IMG/VR virus record: IMGVR_UViG_3300031974_002984 | Coordinates: 1-27,598 of that record | Direction: 5' to 3' (one strand) | DNA length: 27,598 bases | Source: a virus | In this document: positions 2,972 through 20,800 of the stretch, in pieces | Layout of the letters: each line of letters starts with the position of its first letter | Position numbering within the stretch: the first letter of the stretch is position 1 | Made by a program: the position numbers and the translations under genes | Notes under the pieces: generated by a model | Database searches by the model: none | Told to the model about the DNA's origin: nothing | Seen by the model: the letters and a program-made list of their open reading frames with translations, nothing else

Positions 2972-3065
2972 TTTTATTCTCCTTCTTGTTTTTAAAAATT
3001 TTATCAAAGTTTTCGTCAAACTTAGATTTATTATATGGTCTAACTTTTGAGCCTTTGCCTGTCAT
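2934..3065 (-). CDS. Small basic conserved phage protein, 43 aa
   Basis: Begins MTGKGSKVRPYNKSKFDENF and continues DKIFKNKK. The pattern 'KGSKxRPYNxxxFDxNFDxIF' is one I recognise from very small proteins in many tailed phages, normally next to replication genes, with unknown function. The start ATG overlaps the stop of the upstream nuclease gene (ATGA, 3062-3065), and its last 38 bases overlap the start of the DUF6378-type gene in another frame. In those 38 bases the same DNA encodes a Lys-rich tail and the next gene's ribosome site. Confidence 0.6.
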   Translation of the reverse strand: MTGKGSKVRPYNKSKFDENFDKIFKNKKENKNEKPRQDTKPKS

Positions 3066-3565
3066 GTTCTTACCTTAACTATTTCTTCTAAAATATTTTT
3101 TAAATTTTTGTTATTTTGTTGCGAATTATTAAAGTCTTCTTTTCTTAATCTGTAATAAGCATCTTCAGGCGAATCATTGTTTTTGAAGTACAAGATCTTT
3201 TCAAGCTCATAGGAAACGCAAGCAAATATAGGAATGTCAAAAGAATTATATTTTTTCCATTTGCCAAGCTTTCTACCCAAAGAAGTATTAGCTATATTTT
3301 TCCTTCTAAACTCATATTTCCAAATATTTGCAGGAAATCTTAATGTAGAAGTTTTAACTTGTATCCCTATAGAAATATTATTGTAATCAATGATTAAATC
3401 TTTTTTAGAATTATCCCCCAATACATGAGCAACAGTAAATCCAAGTTTTGTTAAATTTGCTTGCACAATAAGCTCTCCAAACAAACCTTTTTGATAATTA
3501 TCATATTCCTTAATATCATCTTCATCAGAGGATTCATAAATATCGAAAAAATCTATTTGTTGCAC
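3062..3565 (-). CDS. PD-(D/E)XK nuclease, PDDEXK_5-like, early copy
   Basis: Restriction-endonuclease fold. The N-terminal 'GLFGELIVQANLTKLGF' helix (about residues 28-44) supplies the conserved Glu, 'KKDLIIDY' (about 54-61) the catalytic Asp, and 'IGIQVKTS' (about 67-74) the (E/Q)xK motif with Gln replacing Glu, as in the I-Ssp6803I/PDDEXK_5 group. 'WKYEFRRK' follows at about 82-89. Such proteins cut DNA as homing endonucleases or resolve branched DNA; position among replication genes favours branched-DNA processing. It is clearly related to the 131-aa gene at 10159-10554. Its start overlaps the upstream gene by 13 bases and its stop overlaps the next ATG. The 167-aa length fits the family. 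Confidence 0.7.
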   Translation of the reverse strand: MQQIDFFDIYESSDEDDIKEYDNYQKGLFGELIVQANLTKLGFTVAHVLGDNSKKDLIIDYNNISIGIQVKTSTLRFPANIWKYEFRRKNIANTSLGRKLGKWKKYNSFDIPIFACVSYELEKILYFKNNDSPEDAYYRLRKEDFNNSQQNNKNLKNILEEIVKVRT

Positions 3566-4065
3566 TTATCTTTAACTTCCGTAAATTCTACACCTTCAAA
3601 TACTTTTGCTAGACTCAAGCGTAAGTCCATAAAATCTTTTGGCACAAATTTAAATAATTCTTCAATGCTAATAAAGTTTACACCTTTCTCTCTTTCGTGA
3701 TCTCTGCGTACTCTTGGTAACTGATAAGCATAATCAGAAACATAAAAGATGTTGTTATCAAAGCTAAAGCATTTGAAGTCAGGATCTAATTTCCTGTAGC
3801 CTTGATCTTCCATGTTCTTTGCAAGGGCTTCGTAAGCTCTTTTCATCATATCTATAGTTTTCATCATTTCATCATCATTTTTGCTGTTAAATGCTTCTCT
3901 GTATATATCAAGCGCTTTTTCAAACCGATATCTAATTTCAGGTTCAATTAGAAGTTTTAATCTTGCATGATAAGTTCCCCAATCAATTTCAAAGTTTCTT
4001 TGGAACTCACGAAATCTTTTAATTTTGTTTAAAGTTACAACATTAAATTCTTTTTTTCTTTTCAT
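3553..4065 (-). CDS. Hypothetical helical protein, 170 aa
   Basis: Basic N-terminus (MKRKKEFNVVTLNKIKRFRE), then long helices (about residues 20-95), including a segment rich in Met and Lys (NDDEMMKTIDMMKRAYEA), and a mixed C-terminal part (SFDNNIFYVSDYAYQLPRVR...). Not recognised. The start is supported by GAGGA eight bases upstream of ATG. It is the first gene after the palindrome and AGACA/TGTCT cluster, so it and the genes behind it may be regulated from there. It could be a DNA-binding replication accessory protein, given its charge and location, but no domain shows this. Confidence 0.65.
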   Translation of the reverse strand: MKRKKEFNVVTLNKIKRFREFQRNFEIDWGTYHARLKLLIEPEIRYRFEKALDIYREAFNSKNDDEMMKTIDMMKRAYEALAKNMEDQGYRKLDPDFKCFSFDNNIFYVSDYAYQLPRVRRDHEREKGVNFISIEELFKFVPKDFMDLRLSLAKVFEGVEFTEVKDKCNK

Positions 4066-4104
4066 AAAATTTTCCTCATCATTGTCTGCCTGTCTATGTC
4101 TATA

Positions 4105-4133
4105 CCTATAGGTATATAGACACAGACAGACAA
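4105..4133 (-). promoter_or_regulatory. Candidate leftward promoter within the palindrome
   Basis: On the minus strand TTGTCT (4133-4128) is separated by 17 bases from TATAGG (4110-4105), the latter lying in the 16-bp palindrome. The match is partial (four of six at the -10), so this is only a candidate. If real, a factor bound to the palindrome would block it, giving independent control of the 170-aa gene and those downstream. Confidence 0.3.
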
Positions 4134-4192
4134 AGACATATTGATCTGTCTATGAAATAGACAAAGAAATAGACAGAGATAGACACAGCCCT

Positions 4193-4217
4193 GAAACCCT
4201 TGCTATTAAAGGGTTTC
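4193..4217 (-). terminator. Hairpin across the primase-helicase stop codon
   Basis: A perfect 9-bp stem, GAAACCCTT (4193-4201) / AAGGGTTTC (4209-4217), with a 7-base loop that contains the TAA stop codon (4206-4208) of the primase-helicase. Neither side has a clean U-run in the minus-strand transcript, so it may be a weak or factor-dependent terminator, an attenuator or an RNA-stabilising element instead of a true terminator. Confidence 0.4.
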
Positions 4218-6143
4218 TTTGTCTGTGTCAGAATAGACAGAGGCTTTATATTCGTTGCCTTCATTGCCTTTTCCCTCTAAATACACTACTTTTCCGTCTT
4301 TTGCCATTTTTGACAGATGATCTCTTATATTTGAGTCTGTATAGTAAGTTTTATTGTCAGGTTTCAAGACTTTGTTATACAGATCTCTACTCTTAAACCA
4401 GTAATTTTTTGCGTAATCTTCACAGCCAGTTTCAGCCATAGATTTAGCAACCGCTAATCCAATTAACGCATCATTTACTTGTTTTTGATCTTTGGTAAAT
4501 GCAAATTCATTATTTGCAGGTTTTTCAGTTTCAATGAGAACAGCAGATGTTAAATCAAATCCCTCGCCTATCAGCTCAACATCTTCTAACTCAAAATACT
4601 TTTCCTCCATACCTAGCCCATCTTTGTTAAGTGATTGGCTAAGTTCTACACCCATGCCTTTTGCTATCTCTTTGCGTTCTACCTTAAACTCATAATCAAT
4701 AGAAGCTCCAAGCACACTAGAACCCCTTTGCCTATCAGTATTGCCATGCCCTGTATGATGAACAAGACATACACAGCATTTATAGTCGTGAATGATATTA
4801 TCAATACAATTTATAAAGTCTCCCACATCTTGCGCTGATGACTCATTACCAGTGAAGTTTCTCTGAAAAGTATCAAAGATCACCATTCCTATTTCTCCGT
4901 GCATATGCTTAAACACATCCAGTTCTTGCCTAAGAAGCTCATATTCAGTGGGGTCATTCACTCTTGCGCCTTTGTTAGAAAGATACAAAGGAATGCCTTT
5001 TAAAGAGAATCCTTTAGCTTTTCTATATTGCTCAATAGCAGCAAGCCTCCTGACAACGCCTCTCTTGCCCTCTCCGCATAGATAAACTACAGGAGCTTGG
5101 GTAGTACGATTGCCAAAGAAATTAACGCCAGCAGCGATGTCAACAGCCATCTCGATCATTACAAAGGTTTTACCTGACTTTGGCTTACCAAATACCGACA
5201 TAAGAGATTGCTTCTCGCATACTTCTTCAATAAGCCATTGTGGGTTCTCTAGCTTAGATGTCACCTGATCGGCTCTCTCGAAGTATAATGCGCCAAGCGG
5301 TAGGGGTGCTTGGTTATCATTAATATGCTTTTCTAGAGCCTCTGAGGAGCTATACAAGCCATTTTTCCAAGCATCCCACAAATCATCTTTATCTTTAGCT
5401 TCTTCATGCGGTTCAGCAATGACCACATTAAAGCAACCATTTGCTCTAAGATGATTCTTTATTTCGTTGGCAAACTTCTTACCAGCATCATCATTGTCAG
5501 GATAGATGTATATATCCCTGCCATATAGAGGAGACCAGTCCGAATTCTTCCAGCCTGAGACTCCTCCATGATGACAACAGCAATCCCCATCGTAGGTCTT
5601 CAAAGCGCCTTGCAACGCTTTCTCTCCTTCTACGATAAGGACTGGCTTTTGGGGAGATCGTTCCTCCACCTTAATCGGCAGTTGACCTTCAGGTCTCTTG
5701 TTAACCCAAATGTCTCCTCGCCTTGAATAAGGTAGATATTTGATCTTGCTTAATCTATGTCCTTCAGGAAAGCGTAGCACCATGAAATCATCGCTATACA
5801 TAACTTTGATTTCGGCTTCAGTCCAAAGCCTAGCCATGTCTTCCCTTGTAAATGATGGCGATGCAACTGTGGGTGTGTTATGCACTATTTCTAAGGAGGG
5901 TGTCACACCGCCATCGTTAAAACCTATATCATCTAAATAATCTTTCACTTCCTTTCCTTCCCTTCTAATCAGCCACTCAACCCCTCCTCCGTCATTGTTT
6001 TCAAAGTCGTAGAAAGTACCTGCCTCTAGGTTGAGCCTTAGACTGCCTTTATTGTTCCAAGAATAATAATTAGCAGTTTTCTTTTTAGGCTCACCTAGAA
6101 GGTCTATGGCTACTTGGGGAGCTATTTCTACCCATTTAGACAT
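4206..6143 (-). CDS. TOPRIM primase-helicase, RepA/DnaB-type
   Basis: Two-part replication enzyme of 645 aa that should prime and unwind phage DNA at the fork. Residues about 1-75 resemble the start of TOPRIM-helicases ('GSLRLNLEAGTFYDFENNDG'); no Cys zinc ribbon is present there. The TOPRIM part is near 166-232, with VEGEKA (171-176, acidic Glu) and YPDNDDAGKK (214-223, Asp pair). The RecA-like ATPase has Walker A GKPKSGKT (319-326), Walker B VIFDTF (421-426), VHHTGHG (461-467) and RGSSVLGAS (473-481), typical of RepA-like helicases. The C-terminus after about 540 may be winged-helix. The gene follows the SSB gene with no gap. No DNA polymerase gene is in the window. Confidence 0.9.
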   Translation of the reverse strand: MSKWVEIAPQVAIDLLGEPKKKTANYYSWNNKGSLRLNLEAGTFYDFENNDGGGVEWLIRREGKEVKDYLDDIGFNDGGVTPSLEIVHNTPTVASPSFTREDMARLWTEAEIKVMYSDDFMVLRFPEGHRLSKIKYLPYSRRGDIWVNKRPEGQLPIKVEERSPQKPVLIVEGEKALQGALKTYDGDCCCHHGGVSGWKNSDWSPLYGRDIYIYPDNDDAGKKFANEIKNHLRANGCFNVVIAEPHEEAKDKDDLWDAWKNGLYSSSEALEKHINDNQAPLPLGALYFERADQVTSKLENPQWLIEEVCEKQSLMSVFGKPKSGKTFVMIEMAVDIAAGVNFFGNRTTQAPVVYLCGEGKRGVVRRLAAIEQYRKAKGFSLKGIPLYLSNKGARVNDPTEYELLRQELDVFKHMHGEIGMVIFDTFQRNFTGNESSAQDVGDFINCIDNIIHDYKCCVCLVHHTGHGNTDRQRGSSVLGASIDYEFKVERKEIAKGMGVELSQSLNKDGLGMEEKYFELEDVELIGEGFDLTSAVLIETEKPANNEFAFTKDQKQVNDALIGLAVAKSMAETGCEDYAKNYWFKSRDLYNKVLKPDNKTYYTDSNIRDHLSKMAKDGKVVYLEGKGNEGNEYKASVYSDTDKETL

Positions 6144-6695
6144 TTAGAAAGGGATATCATCAAAAGATTTATCTTCTTTCTTTGGTTCAGCAGGAGATTC
6201 TTCTTCTCCTGTGACATAAGCAGGTAACACGAAGTTAGCTGGTCTATCTTTCCAATCTACAAATTCAAATCTAGGAATCGCAGTTGTACCAACACCAATC
6301 TTCAATTCCTCTGATTCTAAGTATTTGAAGCATGGTAGTTTAGGTGCGTTATCGTCTTTAGCGTTCCAAAATCCTCTAAGAAGATTTTTAAAAGACTCAA
6401 ACTCGCCATAGGTGAATCGCTCCCATAGCAAAGGCTTATCGTGGCTATCCACATAAACCCATACGCTAAATGCGCGTTTCCACCCATCGGCAGGTTGAGG
6501 GGTCTTTTGTCCTAAGACTTCATCCCATTTAAATTCGTATCCATTGCTGTTATAGATACCCCAGCCAGTTTTAATGGTGTCAGGATCTAGAATCATGTAA
6601 TTAAATTCTAAGATATCTTCGCCATTCCAAAAGCATTTATCCTTTGCCTTGTGAGCAAGGAACATGCTGTTCACGCTATCGTGTAATATTTCCAT
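6144..6695 (-). CDS. Probable phage single-stranded DNA-binding protein
   Basis: The 183-aa product has a mixed alpha/beta body rich in Trp, Phe and Tyr (WDEVLGQKTPQPADGWKR near residues 57-74; SVWVYVDSHDKPLLWERFTY near 77-96), then a disordered acidic/Pro/Lys linker (EEESPAEPKKEDK) and the terminal DDIPF. An acidic tail ending DDIPF is the hallmark of SSB proteins, through which they recruit replication and repair partners. I do not recognise the core as a standard bacterial OB-fold SSB, so it is probably a divergent phage type. It is immediately upstream of the primase-helicase and downstream of the nuclease genes, as expected for a replication-fork protein. Confidence 0.75.
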   Translation of the reverse strand: MEILHDSVNSMFLAHKAKDKCFWNGEDILEFNYMILDPDTIKTGWGIYNSNGYEFKWDEVLGQKTPQPADGWKRAFSVWVYVDSHDKPLLWERFTYGEFESFKNLLRGFWNAKDDNAPKLPCFKYLESEELKIGVGTTAIPRFEFVDWKDRPANFVLPAYVTGEEESPAEPKKEDKSFDDIPF

Positions 6696-6713
6696 GTAAC
6701 ACTTCCTTAATGT

Positions 6714-6893
6714 TTAGTGAAGAGTTTGACCTTCACTTGGATTATATTTTGCCTTCAGCCATTCAATATTGTTTGACTTCCAGCTCCAGTAGTCGCCCAC
6801 ATCATCTATTCCTAGAATCTCGCAGACATACAAATAATTTTGATATCGCTCAAAGCAAAAAGCATCGAAATCGTCATCAAAGATTATGTGCAT
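6714..6893 (-). CDS. Small acidic protein, 59 aa
   Basis: Begins MHIIFDDDFDAFCFERYQNY, with an acidic aromatic N-terminal segment, a likely helix (residues 15-30) and a second Trp-rich helix (DYWSWKSNNIEWLKAKY, about 34-50). It is acidic overall and soluble. Its start overlaps the upstream resolvase-like gene by 17 bases. Not recognised. It lies between nuclease and SSB genes and could modulate one of them, but that is inference. Confidence 0.5.
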   Translation of the reverse strand: MHIIFDDDFDAFCFERYQNYLYVCEILGIDDVGDYWSWKSNNIEWLKAKYNPSEGQTLH

Positions 6894-7323
6894 TTTTTCG
6901 TATCAACTCCATGTCTTTCCAAATGTCATCAAGATAACCTAGCATAACACTTTGGTTAGTTTTAGGAATACCCTCGACAATAAGCCATGCAGGTAACACA
7001 AATCTTTCTTTGTTCCTATTGTATTTATAAATTAGGAACGGAATCTTATCTTCGCCAGCAGCTTCACATGCTTGTTTCCACCAGCGTTCTTGAGCAAAGG
7101 TAGTACCATCGCCAGCGTAACACTTACACTCTATGGCAAACTTTTCCCAAGTTATGTCCTCTTGTCCTTTCTGTTGGTATTGGTCTAGATTGCGCTTAAC
7201 TCTCTCCTCTAGACCTTTTTCTTCGCAATAATCATTTATCATTTTTACTATCTTCCTTTCAAATGCAGCACCTTTATTCCTAGCGTTTACCACAGCGTTG
7301 TTTCCCCATGTGTAAACATCCAC
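6877..7323 (-). CDS. Holliday-junction-resolvase-like PD-(D/E)XK nuclease
   Basis: Residues about 15-75 show the resolvase pattern: NKGAAFERKIVKMINDY (conserved Glu in the first helix), RNLDQYQQKGQEDITW (catalytic Asp in EDI) and FAIECKCYAGDG, which carries the canonical ExK pair. The order E...(Q)...D...ExK matches Hjc-type and phage resolvases that cut four-way junctions before packaging. The 148-aa length fits. The start codon is GTG, inside the preceding gene (37-base overlap), without a clear ribosome site, so a start about ten codons later is possible. It sits in the replication operon before the SSB gene. Confidence 0.75.
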   Translation of the reverse strand: MDVYTWGNNAVVNARNKGAAFERKIVKMINDYCEEKGLEERVKRNLDQYQQKGQEDITWEKFAIECKCYAGDGTTFAQERWWKQACEAAGEDKIPFLIYKYNRNKERFVLPAWLIVEGIPKTNQSVMLGYLDDIWKDMELIRKNAHNL

Positions 7324-7529
7324 ACCAACGCATCATCATCATGCGGTGAATCAGTAACGCTAGTAGTGCCATCTTCGTTAATACGCTTTACAGAATCATC
7401 GTTGTAAGTAACTGTCATCAATGATCCATCAGGAGTAGCTTCGGCATAAATGCTTTTAACACCTTTACGCCATTCCTCAACTCTTATCTTGAGTCTTTGT
7501 CTTGCTACATCGTCAGTGTATTCACTCAC
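7287..7529 (-). CDS. Hypothetical protein, 80 aa, GTG start
   Basis: Starts with GTG overlapping the TGA of the 31-aa membrane protein gene. The product has a short helix (DVARQRLKIRVEEWRKGVK), then predicted beta strands (SIYAEATPDGSLMTVTYNDD, SVKRINEDGTTSVTDS), and an Asp-rich end. The strand-turn pattern suggests a small beta fold. It overlaps the resolvase-like gene by 37 bases. I do not recognise it. Confidence 0.55.
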   Translation of the reverse strand: MSEYTDDVARQRLKIRVEEWRKGVKSIYAEATPDGSLMTVTYNDDSVKRINEDGTTSVTDSPHDDDALVWMFTHGETTLW

Positions 7530-7621
7530 ATCTCTTCCCCATCTTCTGATTTAACAAAAGCCCAAGCAGGCAAGATAATGCAAGCCGCTAATAATATTGC
7601 TCTCAATAACTCTTCAATCAT
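7526..7621 (-). CDS. Tiny membrane protein, 31 aa
   Basis: The sequence is MIEELLRAILLAACIILPAW followed by AFVKSEDGEEM. Residues about 5-23 form a hydrophobic helix, which looks like either a single membrane span or a signal-peptide-like segment. The stop overlaps the GTG start of the next gene. It is too short for family assignment. Tight packing with its neighbours is the main reason to believe it. Confidence 0.4.
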   Translation of the reverse strand: MIEELLRAILLAACIILPAWAFVKSEDGEEM

Positions 7622-7623
7622 AT

Positions 7624-7836
7624 TTAATCTCTGTATCTCATTCTTTTAAAGGTTTGCAAATCCTTTACGCTAACAACATTTGACTCTTCTGTATCGTCTG
7701 CAAAATGTTTTTCTACATCTTTTTTGATTGCTTGTATCGTTTTATCGCTCAATATCTTGCTATCAAAATGACCAAGAAACAAAGCATCTGCATACACATA
7801 TATTTGTAGATCAATTCTTTTTTCTTTGTCACTCAT
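7624..7836 (-). CDS. Hypothetical protein, 70 aa
   Basis: Predicted strand (RIDLQIYVYADALFLG), then a helix (SDKTIQAIKKDVEKHFADD) and a basic end. Soluble, no motif I know. The ATG sits inside the last codons of the RHH-like gene (8-base overlap), so the two are probably translated together. It might be a partner of that small DNA-binding protein; only the linkage supports this. Confidence 0.5.
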   Translation of the reverse strand: MSDKEKRIDLQIYVYADALFLGHFDSKILSDKTIQAIKKDVEKHFADDTEESNVVSVKDLQTFKRMRYRD

Positions 7837-7990
7837 CGCCTAGTTCTTTTGAAATAACTTCTTTAATGATTCTAGAAGCAACATCACCGATGCTTTTCTC
7901 TTTTCTCTTTACTTTAAATATCCACAATAGGTCGTGACATTCTTTGTCAACCCAAATGGCTTCTTTATTATTATTATTTTTTTCGCTCAT
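7829..7990 (-). CDS. Ribbon-helix-helix-like small DNA-binding protein, 53 aa
   Basis: After a Lys/Asn-rich start (MSEKNNNNKE) comes AIWVDKECHDLLWIFKVKRK (a strand followed by a helix) and KSIGDVASRIIKEVI (a second helix). This is the strand-helix-turn-helix layout of Arc/CopG ribbon-helix-helix proteins, with the usual 'Ser...Val...Ile/Leu' second-helix spacing. Such proteins bind operators as dimers, so it is a candidate regulator of phage promoters. A ribosome site (AAGGAGAG) lies nine bases upstream. The 3' end overlaps the 70-aa gene. Confidence 0.5.
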   Translation of the reverse strand: MSEKNNNNKEAIWVDKECHDLLWIFKVKRKEKSIGDVASRIIKEVISKELGDE

Positions 7991-8049
7991 TCGCTACTCT
8001 CCTTAAATGATTGTATATAATAAATATGGGCGCTGGCAATACTCTCCAT
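7987..8049 (-). CDS. Possible 20-aa leader-type ORF
   Basis: ATG at 8049 with AGGAAG upstream opens a frame of 20 codons, whose stop overlaps the ATG of the RHH-like gene (ATGA). It could be a translated coupling peptide or chance. A candidate promoter lies inside it, which argues against coding. Little can be said about a product this short. Confidence 0.2.
   Translation of the reverse strand: MESIASAHIYYIQSFKESSE
8012..8039 (-). promoter_or_regulatory. Candidate internal promoter before the RHH-like gene
   Basis: The minus strand has TTGCCA (8039-8034), a 16-base spacer and TATACA (8017-8012), in one of the few gaps of this compact operon. It would allow separate expression of the RHH-like regulator and later genes. 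Only the consensus match and the intergenic position support it. Confidence 0.35.
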
Positions 8050-8059
8050 TAAACACTTC

Positions 8060-8653
8060 CTAGTCATGCGCCCTCTTCTTAATTCTAGGCATCTTTCTTC
8101 TAACGCTATACGCTTCCTTTGCAGGTACTATCTTCTCAGGTTGAGCCTTGTAATTAATCAAGCCCCAATCTATTTGATAGGTGTCGCATACCGCTTTCTC
8201 AAAGTTACCCATTAGGTGCATAAGCCTCGCCATTAACGCATCCTTTGTCTTGGTCGCAGATTTAATAGTCTCATCAAGATTTTCTATCTGCGCCAAAAGG
8301 TCTAGCGTAGTCGGCTCTAGCTCAAGCACATCTTCTTTGATCTCCTCATCCTCAAACATGATGTAAGCATCTTCTGAGGTTGCAGGATCAAAATAAGTCT
8401 TAGTCTTTACTCTCTTCTGCCAATCGTCAGCCACCTGTCTTAACTCTTCAGCAAAGTTAGGATCACGCTGATAAAAGTAATAACGCAATTCATTAACTGT
8501 ATGGTGGAAGACGATCAACATGCCCCAAGAGACATCTAGAATTTCGCATTGAACTTTTAATTGATCCCACCCACGCCATTTAAGGGGTTCATTGTCAGTA
8601 GGGTAGGCAGCAGTCAATTTACATTCAATAACGCCAAGTCCGTCAATAATCAT
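8060..8653 (-). CDS. YqaJ-type exonuclease, C-terminal part
   Basis: Carries the second half of a YqaJ/lambda-exonuclease-like nuclease. GVIECKLT (residues 7-14) has the catalytic ExK pair, and RGWDQLKVQCEIL (about 27-39) is the 'W..Q.kvQ' block of the family, followed by HHTVNELRYYFYQRD. Residues about 100-145 are a long helix (LLAQIENLDETIKSATKTKD), and the C-terminus is basic (RRKMPRIKKR). The preceding gene supplies the N-terminal half with the catalytic Asp; its TGA overlaps this ATG (ATGA). The natural family product is one chain, so this may be a genuine split, a frameshift or a one-base assembly error. The expected role is 5'-3' resection for recombination. Confidence 0.7.
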   Translation of the reverse strand: MIIDGLGVIECKLTAAYPTDNEPLKWRGWDQLKVQCEILDVSWGMLIVFHHTVNELRYYFYQRDPNFAEELRQVADDWQKRVKTKTYFDPATSEDAYIMFEDEEIKEDVLELEPTTLDLLAQIENLDETIKSATKTKDALMARLMHLMGNFEKAVCDTYQIDWGLINYKAQPEKIVPAKEAYSVRRKMPRIKKRAHD

Positions 8654-9006
8654 TCTTCCACCACATAGATACCCTTTGCAGGGTCAGTTTCAATCGTTAT
8701 GTTGTCAGCCACCGCAGTTCCATCCAGTGAACATTCAACAGGAAAGAAAGGGTGCGTATATTTATCCTCATGCTCTGTAATCACTTTGGTCAAACCAATC
8801 TTCTGACAGGCAAAACGGATAATATGTTCTTCAAAGAAGTCTCCAAGCTCCATAGCAAGGTTTTGTTCAACCCTGCTACTTACACCTTCGGATGCTCTGA
8901 TATTCTCTTGTAGCTGCTTCTGTGGGCTTTTATAAGTGCCATTACCTATGGCATTAGAATAAATGCTTGCAGTCAGCATATCGTCTCTAGTCTTCTTCCC
9001 AACCAT
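8650..9006 (-). CDS. YqaJ-type exonuclease, N-terminal part
   Basis: Resembles the start of YqaJ-family viral recombinase nucleases: LTASIYSNAIGNGTYKSP (about residues 11-28), the conserved Glu/Gly helix LAMELGDFFEEHIIRFA (about 50-66), and ECSLDGTAV (about 91-99) with the catalytic Asp in SLDG. It lacks the ExK motif, which is the first thing in the next frame. The TGA and the next ATG share four bases. The junction sequence GGAAGAATGATT shows no canonical slippery heptamer, so termination-reinitiation is more likely than frameshifting if the split is real. Its own start lies in TAATG with the 24-aa gene. Confidence 0.7.
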   Translation of the reverse strand: MVGKKTRDDMLTASIYSNAIGNGTYKSPQKQLQENIRASEGVSSRVEQNLAMELGDFFEEHIIRFACQKIGLTKVITEHEDKYTHPFFPVECSLDGTAVADNITIETDPAKGIYVVEE

Positions 9007-9080
9007 TATCTTTGCATCATGTAATAGACTGCGCCTACAAGCAGCACAAAGGTAAGAGCTGACATTGCTTCAGGACTCAT
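9006..9080 (-). CDS. Very small membrane protein, 24 aa
   Basis: MSPEAMSALTFVLLVGAVYY followed by MMQR: almost entirely one hydrophobic helix. Its start overlaps the previous stop (ATGA) and its stop overlaps the exonuclease start (TAATG), so it fits exactly in the translational relay. Proteins this small are rarely annotated. The perfect fit is the only evidence that it is real. Confidence 0.4.
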   Translation of the reverse strand: MSPEAMSALTFVLLVGAVYYMMQR

Positions 9081-9304
9081 GCAGCACCTCCTATATTAGT
9101 AATTCTCCACTCAGCAATAGGTGTTTTAATCACCATTGCATCGCCTTTGTTTAAAGCCATAAATTCTTTCCTTTGCGAATCAGTGAAGTAAAACTTATCT
9201 CTTTGCACAAACCATTCATAGTTTGTATAGATAGGCTCTCCCCAATCTTTAAAAGGAATGTCTTTAGACTTCCTGTATCTTTCTTCTATTGTGTACATAT
9301 TCAT
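9077..9304 (-). CDS. Hypothetical protein, 75 aa
   Basis: Soluble, aromatic-rich protein (YTIEERYRKSKDIPFKDWGE, NYEWFVQRDKFYF) with a C-terminal strand region (GDAMVIKTPIAEWRITNIGG). No family recognised. It is second in the leftward operon and overlaps both neighbours by four bases. It probably has an alpha/beta fold. Its position before the recombination nuclease hints at an accessory role in recombination or replication, which is inference only. Confidence 0.55.
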   Translation of the reverse strand: MNMYTIEERYRKSKDIPFKDWGEPIYTNYEWFVQRDKFYFTDSQRKEFMALNKGDAMVIKTPIAEWRITNIGGAA

Positions 9305-9477
9305 CCCCCTAATATTTGATAGATTTCTTGAACACTTTCCCTGACTCTGATCTCGTCTTCTCCGACAAGCTCAATGACAGTACCTTCATAAGATCTATAA
9401 ATGCCTCTTATGTTTTGAACAATTATGGTGACAGTTTGTGGGCTGCCCCATTTGTGAAGTTTGATTGCTCTTTTCAT
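9301..9477 (-). CDS. First gene of the leftward operon, 58 aa, unknown
   Basis: A small beta-rich protein (MKRAIKLHKWGSPQTVTIIV, then NIRGIYRSYEGTVIELVGED and a final helix) with a pattern reminiscent of tiny SH3-like or regulatory proteins, but not recognised. The start ATG lies only seven bases beyond the -10 of the promoter at 9485-9513 and has no ribosome-binding site, so its message may be leaderless. Its stop overlaps the next start (ATGA). Confidence 0.55.
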   Translation of the reverse strand: MKRAIKLHKWGSPQTVTIIVQNIRGIYRSYEGTVIELVGEDEIRVRESVQEIYQILGG

Positions 9478-9484
9478 GTATAAG

Positions 9485-9513
9485 AATATAAACTTATATT
9501 AATAAGAAAGCAA
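9485..9513 (-). promoter_or_regulatory. Promoter of the leftward replication operon
   Basis: The minus strand reads TTGCTT (9513-9508), a 17-base spacer and TATATT (9490-9485). It lies in the only substantial gap upstream of 20 leftward genes and is divergent from the rightward promoter at 9559. Expected transcription starts at about 9478, essentially at the ATG of the first gene. Confidence 0.6.
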
Positions 9514-9558
9514 TACTTTTATATAGAAATATTTTATTATTTTTTTTCAGTAAAGATA

Positions 9559-9586
9559 TTGACATTGTTATATATTAATATACACT
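9559..9586 (+). promoter_or_regulatory. Rightward promoter for the 80-aa and 72-aa genes
   Basis: Perfect TTGACA (9559-9564) with TACACT (9581-9586) at a 16-base spacing; the intervening TA-rich sequence offers other -10 choices. The element shares TTGACAT and alternating TA with the promoter at 276, suggesting that both rightward modules are under the same early-type control. AAGGAAGG precedes the gene start at 9610. Confidence 0.6.
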
Positions 9587-9609
9587 TATATATAACTAAG
9601 GAAGGTAAT

Positions 9610-9852
9610 ATGAAAATAAAACTTAAAAGACTGCACAAGCCAAACGCCCACATGGGCAAGAACTACAATCACTATAAGCATGATTCTACCAAATCAGAAT
9701 ATGGTTATGATGACTTCAGGATTAGGGCTTCTGATCTTGATGGTGACTGGAATGTTTACACGAAAGATGGCAAGCAACTTAATCCAAGAGTTCCTATGGG
9801 TCTTACCTTTAAACAGGCTAGACAATGGTTAGAGAATTATTTAAGTAAATAA
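9610..9852 (+). CDS. Small basic protein, 80 aa
   Basis: The start is placed at the ATG at 9610, eight bases after AAGGAAGG; a frame extension to 9559 would overlap the promoter. The product is basic and His/Tyr/Lys-rich at the N-terminus (MKIKLKRLHKPNAHMGKNYN), followed by FRIRASDLDGDWNVYTKDGK and a C-terminal helix (TFKQARQWLENYL). The middle reads like a small beta hairpin motif. Not recognised. First of a two-gene rightward unit lying between two leftward operons. Confidence 0.6.
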   Translation: MKIKLKRLHKPNAHMGKNYNHYKHDSTKSEYGYDDFRIRASDLDGDWNVYTKDGKQLNPRVPMGLTFKQARQWLENYLSK

Positions 9853-9862
9853 GGGAGGCAAT

Positions 9863-10081
9863 ATGAAAACAGCATATTACACTGGAGAGGGCGGCAAAGT
9901 TCCTGCCCTCATAATAGAAAAGAAAAGAGTTTGGGCTACAGTAGATCTATTAAATGAGGGATCGACAAACCAATGGGAGAGATGGGAAGTTCCTATTGAA
10001 GACTTAGTAGACACAAATGACTTTTACATTGCTCCTCTTAGCAATGCTGTTACTGGCAATATTCTGCTTTGGAATAAATAA
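9863..10081 (+). CDS. Small hypothetical protein, 72 aa
   Basis: AGGGAGG lies upstream of the ATG. The sequence MKTAYYTGEGGKVPALIIEK...RVWATVDLLNEG...RWEVPIEDLVD has alternating hydrophobic residues, suggesting a small beta barrel or SH3-like fold. It ends 8 bases before the stem of a strong hairpin. No family recognised. Early-type expression is inferred from the promoter at 9559. Confidence 0.6.
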   Translation: MKTAYYTGEGGKVPALIIEKKRVWATVDLLNEGSTNQWERWEVPIEDLVDTNDFYIAPLSNAVTGNILLWNK

Positions 10082-10131: not shown

Positions 10132-10176
10132 ATGAAAAGATTATCTCTTTCGTATATTTTAGGTATTGTTTTCTAG
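10132..10176 (+). CDS. Possible 14-aa orphan ORF
   Basis: AGGAAGGG sits at good distance before ATG, and the frame reads MKRLSLSYILGIVF then stop. The site resembles those of the two preceding rightward genes, so it may be the remnant of a third gene, cut short by the convergent nuclease gene it overlaps. The sequence looks like the start of a signal peptide or membrane helix. Low confidence. Confidence 0.25.
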   Translation: MKRLSLSYILGIVF

Positions 10177-10554
10177 AATATCAAGCAAATTCTTAACCGC
10201 ATCATTGTTCTTCATGTGTTCATCTTGGATGGTAATTTGCTTATCCGTGTGTGGTTTAATGAATACCACATTGCGTAATTCCAAAGAGACAAGGGCATAA
10301 AGATCAATCGTGTTCTCAGGATACTGTCTATCTTTAGCTTTACTTCTTCTTAAATCATAACGCCAATTAATGCGATGGATTTCGTGCTGTGATTTTGTTT
10401 TGACTTGGCATCTATAGAATTTGTATTCGTATTCAAAAACTATATCTGCGATACCTTGACTGGTGATGAATACTTGGTCTGCTACTTGGGCAACGATGCT
10501 TGCAGCTAAAAACTCTCCTGCATTACCAATGTGGTGAGTATGATGCAGAGCCAT
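10159..10554 (-). CDS. PD-(D/E)XK nuclease, late paralogue
   Basis: Short 131-aa nuclease-fold protein. HIGNAGEFLAASIV (about residues 7-20) holds the Glu helix, IADIVFEYEYKF (about 35-46) the Asp, and CQVKTKS (about 49-55) the QxK motif. The pattern 'QVKT ... WRYDLRRSK ... YALVSLELRNVVFIK' aligns step by step with the early 167-aa protein ('QVKT ... WKYEFRRKN ... FACVSYELEKILYFK'). This one lies in the late operon after the lysozyme gene and just before the terminator. The role may be DNA branch removal during packaging, or restriction-like cutting of host or competing DNA. Gln in place of the usual catalytic Glu is normal for this subgroup. Confidence 0.65.
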   Translation of the reverse strand: MALHHTHHIGNAGEFLAASIVAQVADQVFITSQGIADIVFEYEYKFYRCQVKTKSQHEIHRINWRYDLRRSKAKDRQYPENTIDLYALVSLELRNVVFIKPHTDKQITIQDEHMKNNDAVKNLLDILENNT

Positions 10555-14170: not shown

Positions 14171-14806
14171 TTATTGAGTTATATAAAAACTTTTACTTGC
14201 ACCAACTGTAGTGCCAAAGTAATTAGTTGTTCCATTAAAATACCAAATGCCTGCGGGTACTGAAACAAGCCCCACACTAACAGTTGTAGCAGTAAATGAT
14301 GTTCTATTGCTTCTAGTAAAATTAGTTCCATTAATTGTCATAGTTTTCCATACATCGTCAGAATCATTGTCGGCATCTATTTGGGGGATAGTTAAATCGT
14401 TTCTTATAATTAATCTAGTGCTTGGGCTATAACTGGTATTTGGATTTGGAAAATAATCTGCTGCTCTTATTATAAATTGATCGTAAAATTCGCTACCAAT
14501 AGATCCATAATTATCTTCTAGGTAGCCATAAACCCCTGTACCACTAGGATTGCCAACAGTAATAGTGGTGCTTAAAGTTGCAATACTATTTGTGCCATAA
14601 AAATTTTTTAAAGATATTGTTCCGCTAGAAGGCACTGCTCCATAAGTTCCAGTAGTTCCTGAAGGCACTATGCTACCGCCTGCATAAAAATCACTAACTG
14701 CCCAATCAGCTAAAAAATTTGGATCTTGGAAATTAGAAATCCATTCAGGCTTCCATTCTTGAACTATGTCAGTCATGTCTATCAATCCGCTAGTTTGTAA
14801 TGTCAT
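14171..14806 (-). CDS. Fibre-associated structural protein, 211 aa
   Basis: After an acidic beginning (LIDMTDIVQEWKPEWISNFQ), the sequence becomes Ser/Thr/Gly/Asn-rich beta structure. It contains VPSSGTISLKNFYG (residues about 58-71), a motif typical of virion structural proteins in marine T4-like and other phages. The remainder looks like a beta-sandwich or adhesin tip (FTRSNRTSFTATTVSVGLVS). It starts within the last 17 bases of the J/fibre gene in another frame. It could be a tip adhesin or tail-fibre assembly protein; the sequence does not decide between them. Confidence 0.6.
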   Translation of the reverse strand: MTLQTSGLIDMTDIVQEWKPEWISNFQDPNFLADWAVSDFYAGGSIVPSGTTGTYGAVPSSGTISLKNFYGTNSIATLSTTITVGNPSGTGVYGYLEDNYGSIGSEFYDQFIIRAADYFPNPNTSYSPSTRLIIRNDLTIPQIDADNDSDDVWKTMTINGTNFTRSNRTSFTATTVSVGLVSVPAGIWYFNGTTNYFGTTVGASKSFYITQ

Positions 14807-17800
14807 CTAACTTTGCCTTCAATTCTTCTATTTGTTCTTGTTGTTCTTTAATAGCTTCAATTAATACGCCAATAAAGCCATCGTATTTAACTCTTTTAAT
14901 TGTTTTATTAGGATCTTCTATATCGCATTTTTCAGCAACTAAAAATGACATTTCTGTTTTTTCTACTTCCTGAGCTATAACTCCTGAAGACTGAACATCA
15001 TTTTTCTTCCATTTAAAATGTCTACCTGTAAGCGATTTAATAATTTCAATAGGGTTTTCTATATTTTGTATATCGTATTTTAATCTTTCGTCTGAAGTAA
15101 CAGTTGTAGAGAAAGCAACCACATCTCCTCTAGCATGTATATCGCCTTGAACACCGCCACCGCCTGACTGATTGTTAATCATAAAGTCACGAGATAAAGA
15201 AGCTAAACTGGTTGCATTACCACCAGTAAAAACTAACCTTGCATCATTACCGCCTACATTTTCAGCAAAGATATTATTTGAATATGCTGATCCTGAATTC
15301 TGAAAAGCAATACCTCTATCACTAGCATTATCATTGGTTTGCAATGTAAGCATGTCTCTACCATTAAATGCAGCATTACCAATATTGACTTTGCCATAAG
15401 CTTTTAAAGTGCTATTAGCTCTGATTGGAGCAGAAGAATAAAGCTCTGACGCTTCCACATAAAGAATACCAGTGCCACTTCCGCCACCTTTGATATAATT
15501 AGATGCTCCATCACTATCAAGTATAGTCCCAGTATCGTTTGTAAGCGTTCTGTAGAATGTAATATCCCCTGAAGTAGTAATATCTCCATCTTCACCACTT
15601 ACAGTAAATAGATAAGGAGTTGCTATCGTGCCTGTACCATCGCCATGTCTACCAATTACGAAATCTGCATTTCCAGTATTATTATCATTAGAATCTAAAT
15701 CTATATAAATAGCACCATAAGAGCTAATTCTTAAATCATCTTGTATAGCACCTGTATGATCACGAGAACCTATAGAATGGTAAGGAGCATTATTACCATA
15801 AAAAGTAATATGACCACCTCTAGGAAGATCAACGCCCCCTGTGCCACTTCCACCGCTAGTTGTATATAGTTGCACATGATCATTATTTGTAAGTGTAATA
15901 TCCCCACAAGCAACTGTTCCAATATTTACTAAATTCCTTGATGAATCTATGACTGTAGTTGATGAAACACTATATGAAGTAGCAAAAGCATTAGCACTAG
16001 CATCAAACACTTGTGTGCCTGCTCCATCTCCTAATCCAGTACCATCAGCAGAAGCACCAACACGAATAGAATCGTGATCAACAAGTAGCCCCATGCTAAA
16101 TGAAATATTAGTGCCTGCTGTTCCTATTGTTGCTGCATTCAGTGATATAAATCCATCTGTATCATGCCCGCCAAATAACATTTTACCTACACCATCGCCT
16201 GTTACTTGATACTGACCATTACCTGTGCCTGAATATCCAAGAGAAATAGAATAGTTGCCGTTACCATCATTAACATTATGACGAATAGAATAGTTGCCGA
16301 CACTATCTTTGAAAGCTAAAACATTATCGCCATCGGCATTGTCGTATCTAGCATCTAAAAATAAACATCCATCAATATTTACATTGGAACTGAAAGCTCC
16401 TGTAGATGCAGATATGGTTGATATTGTGCCTGTTATCGTGCCTGTAACGCTTAAATTACCACCAACAGTTAAGCCTTGAGCAATATCAACAGCACCACCG
16501 CTATCTATGTATAATTGCCTTACTCCACTGGTAATTAATGAAATTTGATCTGTGCTATAAGTTGAGCCATTACCAAAAACGATTGCAGCAGGTGAAGAGC
16601 CAGTTTCGCCATAATTGTAAATTGCTTGGGTTGCAATATAACCATCACTTACTATTCTTTGTGTTCCTGATAAATAAGATGATCCAGTTGATGTAACCCC
16701 ACCAATATTGATGCTAGTAGAAAAATCAGCAGTAGTTATATTGGTTAAGGCTCTTGCAGAATCAATAACTGTAGTTCCTGAAATACCAATGCCACCTGCA
16801 ACATTTAATTTTTGCCCTGATCCAACAGAACTGGTTGCTATACCCAAACTTCCTGAGTTTGTATAGTAATGGTTGGTGCTACCTTTATAAAATATATAAT
16901 CATTGCCATCGGTATCGGTGAACTGTATTCCAGTAGTTGCATCTGAGCTTGTAACATCTATAGGAGCATCGGAAGCTGAGGTAAAAGTATGTTGAGTTCC
17001 ACTGCCTGAATTAGCAGTAATAGCACCACTAGAGATAGCTCCTGAAAGGTATAATTCATTCCATTTATGGTTAGAAGCTCCTAAATTCATAGAGCTTCCC
17101 ACTCTAGGCAATAAAGAAGATCCATTTTGAGGTAAGGCTATTCCGCTACTGCTAGAATTAGAATTTCCTAAATAAACCCCAGTGTAATTTGCAGTTGATT
17201 CGTAACCAATGTTGATTTGTTGAGTAGAAGATCCTATTGCTGAGGTATATACATTTCCTGAAAAAGTAGAATTGTCTGAGGAGTCGATACTCAATGGCGT
17301 TGTGGATGTAAGTGAATTTCTAATATCAAAAACACCATCGTGTGACCTAATTAAATGCCTAGCAGGTGTTGTGTTTGAGGGTGCATCCAATCGAATTGTT
17401 GCAAAATCAGCTCCACTAGATGCAACATGTAACTGATTTGCAGGACTTACAGTACCTATACCAAGACTTTCAGCACTTGCATCCCAAAATAGTTTTGCAG
17501 TTGTGCCTGTATCTTCGTAGAAAGAGATGTCGCCTGTAGTATGACTAACTTGTAACCTTTGTGTTTGAGTACTTTTATTATCTGAAAGTGTTTGGACTGA
17601 GAAAACTCCACCATTTGCACGAAGTCGTAGATTTTTATCTGTTTGGTCTGACTCCATAAAGTCTAACGATAGAGCATTACCTATGAGTTCTGCATTACCA
17701 TCAACAGTCAAACCATCAGAAGTTACTGTACCTGTTACATCTATACCTGTTGAGGTTGTGGCTAGTTTTGGTGAATTGTCATGATAAAGCGTTACAGCAC

Positions 17801-20800
17801 CATCTGTACCAATAGTTAAACCTGTTTCATCAGCAGCATTTCCTGTAAGAAAGTTAATAGCATTTCCACCAGAAATGTTTAAAACTCCATTTCCTTTTTC
17901 TTTAATGTAACTATTACTGCCATCATGATAAATTTCTAAATCTAAACTATTGCCAAAAGTAGCTTTTGCATTATCTCCTAAAGAAATACCATGTGAGAAA
18001 TCAAATCTATCGCTAGTAGTATTCCAAAGAATCGTAGCATCGGTAGTTGAGTTAACCGCATCTTGAATCGTAATACCTGCACCATTAGCACTTGCAGAAG
18101 TATCTCCACTTCCATAGTTCAGCGTAATGTTTTTATCTTCTACATTAAGCGTTGCAGTTTCTAGAGTTGTAGTAGTGCCTTGTACTGTTAAATCACCTGT
18201 AACAGTTAAATTGGTAAAAGTAGGGCTACCACTAACAGCAATAGTTAAAGTATCAGTAGAGGCATTAGTAGTTAGTGCTATACCACTTCCTGCTGCCATT
18301 GTAAGAATGTTTGCATTAGTAGCATCGGAAGTAATAGTGCTTTGCCCTGAAACAGCTATCTTTTGGAAAGAGTCCACTGTTGAACTACTACCTGTTCCAT
18401 TGGTAACAATAAAACCACCTGAATCAGCAGCGATCCTGATTGCTCTTGATAAACTAGGCACACCAGTATTTGCAGGATAATTAGATAAATCGTAAGAAGT
18501 ATCTGTAGTAGTGACCTCTACTCTTATGTAATAAGTTGTATCAGCAGATAACGCTACAGTTGATCCGCTATTTGCAACAAAGTCTAAGTCACCAGTGCTT
18601 GTTACTGCTCCATATCCTTTTGATACAGAAGACTGGTATAACCCAAAGAAACCAAATACAGCTACATGATATTCAGTTGAAGTAACTCCGCTTCCATCAG
18701 AAGGATCAGGAATAAATGTTCCAGTAGTGTCTGCGGTAAAGGTTTGTTCACTAGAATGGGTATCTGTTCCACTAAAGTCTGAATTTTCACTAACTCTAAC
18801 TTTTAATTTAATGTTTGCAGGAATATCTGCTTCTGCTGCTGCTTCACTAGCTCTGTTAAATTCACCAAGTATTTGAGTAACATTTAATTTACCTGTTAGC
18901 GTTACATTAACTGCATCGGATGTTGATATAACAGCAGCATCGGTATTGTTTGATGAAGTATAAGAATAGGTGCTTAATGTTGTTCCTGTACCTGAGAGAA
19001 GATCAGATCTTGCTTCTTCGGTAAATCCATTTTCATCAAAGTAAACGATGTTATTTGCTTTAAAAGCTAATCTATCTAAATAAACTGTTCCATCATTTTT
19101 AACAGCAAAGGTTGCAGATTCAGGGTTATTAGCACCTGCAAAAATATTGTATTCTTCATCAGCATCCGCACCAATGCCAACTGTACCTGTTCCTGTGCCT
19201 GCGGTTACTTGACCTTTAAAAAATGCACTTCCTGTTGAATTGATTCTAAAGTTTTTAGCAGATAGAGATCCATTGTTTAGATTGAACTTTAAACCTGCTG
19301 TAGAAAAGTCTGAGCCATTGCCTGTTCCTGAATGGTTAGATGATGTTAGCGATCCTGCGGTTACATCATCTGCTGAGATAGTGCCAAAAACACCTGAATC
19401 AGAAGTTAAAGTTCCTGTTGCTATTTCAGTTGCGGTAATAGTTCCTGCTGCTATCTTGTCTGCGGTAACAGCATCAGCAGCAAGTTCTGTAGTGGTAATT
19501 GCATCTGCTGCTATTTCTCCTGCTGTTAAGCTATTGGCAATAATTTTTCCTGCTCCAATAGTTCTTGCAGCAATACGATCACCAGTAATACTTCCTGCAA
19601 CAATCTTTGCTGCTCCTAAAGTGCCATCAATAATTAAATCGCCTGCAAAGAAATCGTCTACTGCAACAAAGTCATCTGCTATGCCATCGGCATTAGTATC
19701 TTGATACTTGTAACCTTGAGATTCTTCAGGAGTAGCATCGGTTTGTATGACAATTAATATATCGCCATCAATAGGATCTCTGCCAAATGCTGAGTTAAAG
19801 CCTGCATCATTAGGTGCATCAGTGCTACCTGTTTGCTCTAATCTAAAGAAACCACCAATAGGGAAGTTAAGATCAGGAACAGTTATAGGTGGCTCTGAAA
19901 CAGTAAAGTTTAAAGTTGCAGGATCAGATTCAGATCCAGTAGTTGTAATGGTGCTAACTTGTATTTTGTAATCACCTGTAGCAATAAAGTTAAGATCTAC
20001 AAATGTATCGTTAGTAATTTTAGAAAATACTGTATCGCCATCATTAGCTCCACCTCTAATATAACAATTTGCTCTATATTCTTTTGCAGGTGAATTAGTG
20101 TTTTCATTCCATGCAACATAAGGTCTTAAAGATGCAGAAGAATCACTATCTGTAAAACTTAAATTGGTGGGTGGTAATGCTTCAGTTCCAGTAGGGATAT
20201 CAGGTTGTTCAGGCACATTTTCTTCAGGTGGCTCTGCATCCCAATCATAAACATTAATATATTCAATAGCTTGGATATTTAATAAACCATTTTCCAAAAG
20301 ATCTATTGCTTCTATTCTGTAATAATCGCTACTTAAACCAAGACCTGCATAAGTAATATCAATAACATCACCAACAGATAATTTGAATAATTGAGGAGTT
20401 GCTAAAAAAGAAACTGTTTTTTGATTTCTTGATCTTCCAAGAATAGCTTTGCCCATGTTGTAAGCTATATAAGGATTGGTAATATAATCAAACTCTACTT
20501 TTAGTTCTAATTCTTCTCCACCATCATTATCTTTGTAATCTGTAAATGTTCCATCTGAATTAGGATCATGGAAAACAGTTACAGTATCAGCTTCATATTT
20601 CTTTTGACCATTAAAGAAATTGACTACAACTTTGTTATATTTTTTGCTTTTATCCTCATATTGTATTTTGATACCCTGATCATCAATAATATGATCATCA
20701 TTAACACTAAAAACAGAAGAAGCGGTATCTTCAATTAAAACTGTATACTTACCATTAAGATAATTTAAAAAACCTCTTATATTAGATAAAAGATCTCTAG

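Follow-up and report, generated by a model that had tools for sequence, protein, structure and literature searches.

The DNA analysed here, referred to as the window, is a stretch of 27,598 nt (positions 1 to 27,598 of IMG/VR virus record IMGVR_UViG_3300031974_002984), and it encodes an exonuclease whose sequence is divided between two overlapping reading frames, A and B. This raises the question of whether a phage makes one nuclease from two polypeptides. A sequence-only reading of the locus had described a YqaJ-like exonuclease split at an ATGA junction, with the catalytic residues separated, and had offered a two-subunit enzyme made by reinitiation, an unusual frameshift, or a one-base assembly error as explanations. 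We found the same split in 13 further contigs, which is far beyond chance and confirms the two overlapping frames. Alignment to single-chain relatives also confirmed the separation of the catalytic residues, with Glu59 and Asp95 on A and the ExK motif and Gln31 on B (Table 1).

Table 1. Features of the split exonuclease gene in the window
Feature	Position	Strand	Description
ORF A	8650..9006	-	118 aa; N-terminal nuclease half, with the Gly55/Glu59 helix and the Asp95 strand
ORF B	8060..8653	-	197 aa; C-terminal half of the nuclease: Glu10-x-Lys12, Arg27-Gly28, Gln31, helical and C-terminal region
ATGA	8650..8653	-	B start codon overlapping the A stop codon TGA; B in the -1 frame relative to A
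GTGGTG, Shine-Dalgarno-like	8659..8664	-	5 nt 5' of the B ATG; duplex -6.2 kcal/mol
A_AAG_GGT heptamer	8671..8677	-	In the phase of frame A; possible weak -1 slippage site
Glu59 codon, ORF A	8830..8832	-	Glu59 invariant in single-chain relatives
Catalytic Asp95 codon, ORF A (SLDG)	8722..8724	-	
Glu10-Cys11-Lys12 codons, ORF B (ExK motif)	8618..8626	-	
Gln31 codon, ORF B	8561..8563	-	Invariant Gln past the ExK motif

To which family do the two products belong? A and B match adjoining parts of one profile, PHROG 434 ('RecE-like recombination exonuclease'). The match of A is weak (positions 61-152, E 0.0045), that of B is strong (positions 157-334, E 1e-17), and a fused relative matches the same profile with an E value of 4e-22. 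Against YqaJ (PF09588), A stayed below the threshold (E 0.081) and B alone gave no match. PF09588 was matched by 21 of the 33 single-chain relatives (E <= 0.01). In these 33 relatives, the residues G55, E59, D95, E130, K132, R146, G147 and Q150 are invariant; the first three fall in A, and the others correspond to E10, K12, R27, G28 and Q31 of B. The catalytic Glu, Asp, Glu-x-Lys and Gln are all kept across A plus B in every split member. For lambda exonuclease, metal binding has been assigned to Asp119 and Glu129, and the activation of water to Lys131 (PMC6199318). It is a usual, if not formal, trait of the family that one chain carries all catalytic residues, but in 14 contigs the Asp lies on A and the ExK motif on B.

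Both products of the window and both products of a second split contig (L115) served as queries for scans of IMG/VR, which found over 100 homologs with a readable junction. Nearly all of them have a single open frame. The split is present in 14 contigs counting the window, and the 13 others come from 12 metagenomes, with identities of 58-97%. We distinguished two arrangements. Type I comprises the window, L002 (97% identical to the window over B) and L003 (79% over B, 83% over A), and consists of proteins of 118 and 197 aa, a 4-nt ATGA overlap and B in the -1 frame. Type II comprises 11 contigs from 11 metagenomes (L113, L114, L115, L143 and the contigs of L209 and L211-L216). Here A has 121 aa and ends in GIYVVSNNES-TAA or a variant of it, B is in the +1 frame, and the overlap extends over 11 nt from the B ATG through the end of the A stop codon. 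The tail of A past GIYVV is variable (EE, TE, SNNES, SNNEA, SNNED, SNNEY, SNDAS), which is what a free end should show.

The junction pattern ACTNACCCTNNNAAGGGNNTNTATGTGGTG matches exactly the 13 other split contigs in the whole viral collection and gave zero matches in the genome collection, where a search for relatives also found none. A phage DNA search for a near match likewise found none. The earlier reading was to be given up if close relatives turned out to have an uninterrupted single frame and the split was not conserved. Single-frame relatives are indeed plentiful, but the split is kept in the 13 other contigs with both halves under purifying selection.

Frame breaks were also seen in two exonuclease homologs, each in a single contig. 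In L069:1997-3066, the break lies just past the catalytic Asp (SIDGTCCRA / EQLTIQESEA) and has no start-stop overlap; it is probably an error, the other option being a third split. In L065:5000-5950, the break lies past IECKATRNSG and is likely an error.

The start of B carries features of a translation start. At the position of the B start, fused relatives mostly have Ile, and otherwise Val or Leu, while all 14 split genes have the ATG of B. In all 14, the ATG is preceded by GTGGTG, which can pair with the anti-Shine-Dalgarno sequence and is absent at the same place in the nearest fused group. The predicted duplex has an energy of -6.2 to -7.7 kcal/mol in the 14 split genes compared to -0.8 to -1.5 in the 15 nearest fused genes, these sequences being related and thus not independent observations. 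Among more distant fused genes, L009, L011, L012 and L122 have Shine-Dalgarno-like runs at the same place (duplex -7.9 to -10.0), which arose by chance. The start of A in the window is poorly marked (Shine-Dalgarno duplex -2.3).

The distance between GTGGTG and ATG is 5 nt in type I and 7 nt in type II. A 2-nt shift would be easily tolerated only if the polypeptides were separate, which favours two products. The start-stop overlap is short and on the same strand, at 4 nt in type I and 11 nt in type II, as in translationally coupled gene pairs. Genes that overlap by a short stretch are coupled in translation, and subunits of heteromeric complexes are over-represented among them (PMC10666635); start-stop overlaps of the ATGA kind are found in translationally coupled gene pairs (PMC6728339).

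Both halves are under strong purifying selection, indicating that both are maintained as proteins. Between the window and L002, dN/dS was 0.06 for A and 0.11 for B; between the window and L003 it was 0.07 for A and 0.04 for B, with dS near saturation. Within the 11 type II contigs, we obtained 0.13 for A and 0.10 for B. The corresponding values in a fused group, F1, were 0.03 for the A part and 0.07 for the B part.

Taken together, the best explanation of these sequence data is that A and B are translated separately but in a coupled manner and come together as subunits to restore a single composite active site; we give this explanation a probability of about 0.76. Conservation of the split in the 13 other contigs and selection on both halves favour this two-subunit enzyme, the first of the options raised earlier. 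A one-base indel in a normal single gene would agree with the single frame of nearly all relatives. However, the window lacks a net 7 nt at the junction compared to single-chain relatives, rather than one base, there is no homopolymer, and the change comes with a new start codon and a Shine-Dalgarno-like element. Since three divergent type I sequences share the junction, and type II is split in another frame, with the split recurring in other metagenomes down to 58% identity, an assembly or sequencing error is excluded for practical purposes. A homing endonuclease or intron between the halves was also rejected, as there is no insert and the halves overlap in all 14 contigs.

Programmed -1 ribosomal frameshifting, for example at A_AAG_GGT (8677..8671), would yield a full-length fusion of A to B, while translation that does not shift would give A by itself. 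The sequence-only reading had seen no slippery heptamer at the junction; this is correct for the junction itself, but the possible heptamer lies 17 nt upstream of ATGA. In type I it is in phase within a stretch open in both frames (A_AAG_GGT in the window and L002, A_AAG_GGA in L003), heptamers of the form A_AAG_GGN are shift-prone in E. coli assays (PMC4066793), and the fusion would nearly retain the ancestral length. On the other hand, the heptamer also occurs in the single-frame gene L014 (A_AAG_GGC) and, by eye, in L012, so that it can be put down to the Lys-Gly codons. The RNA downstream of it showed no unusually stable structure (MFE z +1.6 in the window and 0 in L003), and B has its own ATG and Shine-Dalgarno-like element in every split gene. 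Type II has T_AAG_GGN, would need the opposite (+1) shift, and varies in the codons before the stop (TCT, GCT, GAT, TAT). A programmed frameshift common to the whole group was therefore rejected, since in the sister group the split persists with B in the opposite frame and the heptamer is missing. Frameshifting is thus improbable as the explanation of the locus, and in type I it may make at most a weak, minor contribution.

The gene could also be broken or reassigned, with one or both halves made and the nuclease role lost. In favour of this, the split cuts through the catalytic hairpin, and nuclease activity is here a prediction. Against it, both halves are under purifying selection, all split members keep all catalytic residues, two different start-stop arrangements are both intact, and the split gene sits in the same operon slot as the fused gene. 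We consider loss of the nuclease role unlikely.

The place of the split on the fold was examined in the predicted structure of a single-chain relative, L222 (pLDDT 92). Its best PDB matches were 3SZ4, 3SYY, 6M9K and 3SM4, with E values of 3e-07 for LHK-Exo and 1e-05 for lambda exonuclease, and a sequence match to 3SYY agrees with the structural match to LHK-Exo and lambda exonuclease. The split maps between strands 96-106 and 120-134 of the model. The former directly follows Asp95 and the latter bears the ExK motif, so that the split is predicted to fall in a surface loop between the Asp-bearing and ExK-bearing catalytic strands. When B was modelled alone, the pLDDT was 83.6, the C-terminal part had a pLDDT of 50-61, and the C-terminal strands were lost. 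This model was less certain than that of the fused relative (pTM 0.50 compared to 0.77), the alignment for B being smaller. The weaker model is only suggestive of a dependence of B on packing against A.

The two-subunit reading can be set out as follows. The locus would encode a YqaJ/RecE-like recombination exonuclease of the lambda-exonuclease fold, divided at the surface loop between two catalytic strands. Ribosomes would end A at TGA and begin B at the overlapping ATG, aided by the GTGGTG ribosome-binding element inside the end of A, and this coupling of stop and start would make A and B together in a near-fixed ratio. Strand-to-strand pairing of the two proteins would then assemble one active site, to which A contributes Glu and Asp and B contributes Glu-x-Lys and Gln. 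Neither half should be active alone. Because the family forms ring trimers, we infer that three A-B heterodimers probably make up the working enzyme.

How did the split arise? The outgroups are fused, so fission is most simply the derived state. Type I branches next to a group that joins type II with the fused F1 genes, and this holds for the A and the B tree alike. In the B tree, type II genes lie among F1 genes and a single split clade was rejected (AU p 0.004); in the A tree built without the A tail, a single split clade was not quite rejected (AU p 0.058). Nucleotide identity between type II and F1 is about 75-100% in the regions flanking the junction but only 44-50% at the junction. At the junction, the window has up to 84% identity to type II compared to 50-55% to F1. 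The simplest reading of these patterns suggests that a junction tract of about 100 nt was exchanged by recombination between near-identical split and fused genes. Alternatively, F1 may have re-fused after an ancestral split, or fission may have happened twice.

The fused L155 and the split L115 have the same gene neighbourhood, indicating that the split and fused forms are alternatives at one locus, and dataset 3300005512 contains both forms (L212 split, L219 fused). Speculatively, the split might be a selected, transferable allele: local recombination would carry a tract of about 100 nt, with its stop, ribosome-binding element and start, from phage to phage and so convert a one-chain ring into a heterodimer ring with a shared active site, perhaps for dose control or escape from an inhibitor. 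We regard this idea as possible but doubtful. The effect of the split is directly testable, as the two forms occur in near-identical phages.

Several observations concern other genes of these phages. No recognisable annealase (RecT, ERF, Red beta) was found near the exonuclease among the proteins scanned in window 4000-10000. A 183-aa protein encoded before the primase-helicase (window 6144-6695) is conserved in relatives, and its terminal DDIPF resembles the acidic tip of bacterial SSB; the protein has no Pfam, PHROG or PDB sequence match and is a candidate for an unrecognised SSB. Two endonuclease-like proteins of one family (PDDEXK_5 / PHROG 5018) are encoded in the same phage at window 3062-3565 and 10159-10554. 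A 2395-aa tail protein (window 14790-21977) ends in an intramolecular-chaperone-like region (SDERLKYDI). Next to the fused form in L155 (3582-4409), we found a 275-aa PAPS-reductase-like gene with the motif SGGRTSG that overlaps the end of the exonuclease gene; it was not seen at the same place in the split-form L115.

If both chains assemble, this would be a naturally split nuclease that draws its acidic and its ExK residues from two proteins and lacks a homing endonuclease insert. Fused and split versions with near-identical flanks offer a ready pair for studying why and how genes undergo fission, and the junction marks where nature has divided a member of an exonuclease family that serves as a genome-engineering tool.

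Compared to lambda exonuclease and LHK-Exo (YqaJ, PF09588; PHROG 434), the enzyme of the window shares the fold, the order Glu/Asp/Glu-x-Lys/Gln and the setting in a phage DNA-metabolism operon. The known members are one chain, whereas here Glu and Asp are on a different chain from ExK and Gln, and, unlike those enzymes, it has an extra C-terminal region past the core. A homolog 30% identical over B, gp05 of Methylophilales phage MEP301 (YqaJ family, MW452941), also lies in an early gene block, but it is a single chain followed by an ERF annealase, which was not found in the window. Translationally coupled overlapping pairs (ATGA; PMC6728339, PMC10666635) likewise use the overlap for coupled synthesis of subunits of one complex; in the window, however, the subunits are halves of one ancestral domain with one shared active site. 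Phage enzymes that are split and yet reassemble are already known: Aeh1 NrdA, T4 topoisomerase and the Aeromonas phage DNA polymerase 43A/43B are each made as two reassembling polypeptides, and the split ribonucleotide reductase NrdA of Aeromonas phage Aeh1 ('genes in pieces') is fully functional (PMC2988022). In those three systems a homing endonuclease or intercistronic sequence lies between the halves, whereas the window has only the start-stop overlap, and its family, unlike theirs, has fused and split forms in close relatives. Within the literature searched, what appears to be new is that a lambda-type exonuclease is split through its catalytic hairpin with no insert, in two frame arrangements and with coexisting fused alleles.
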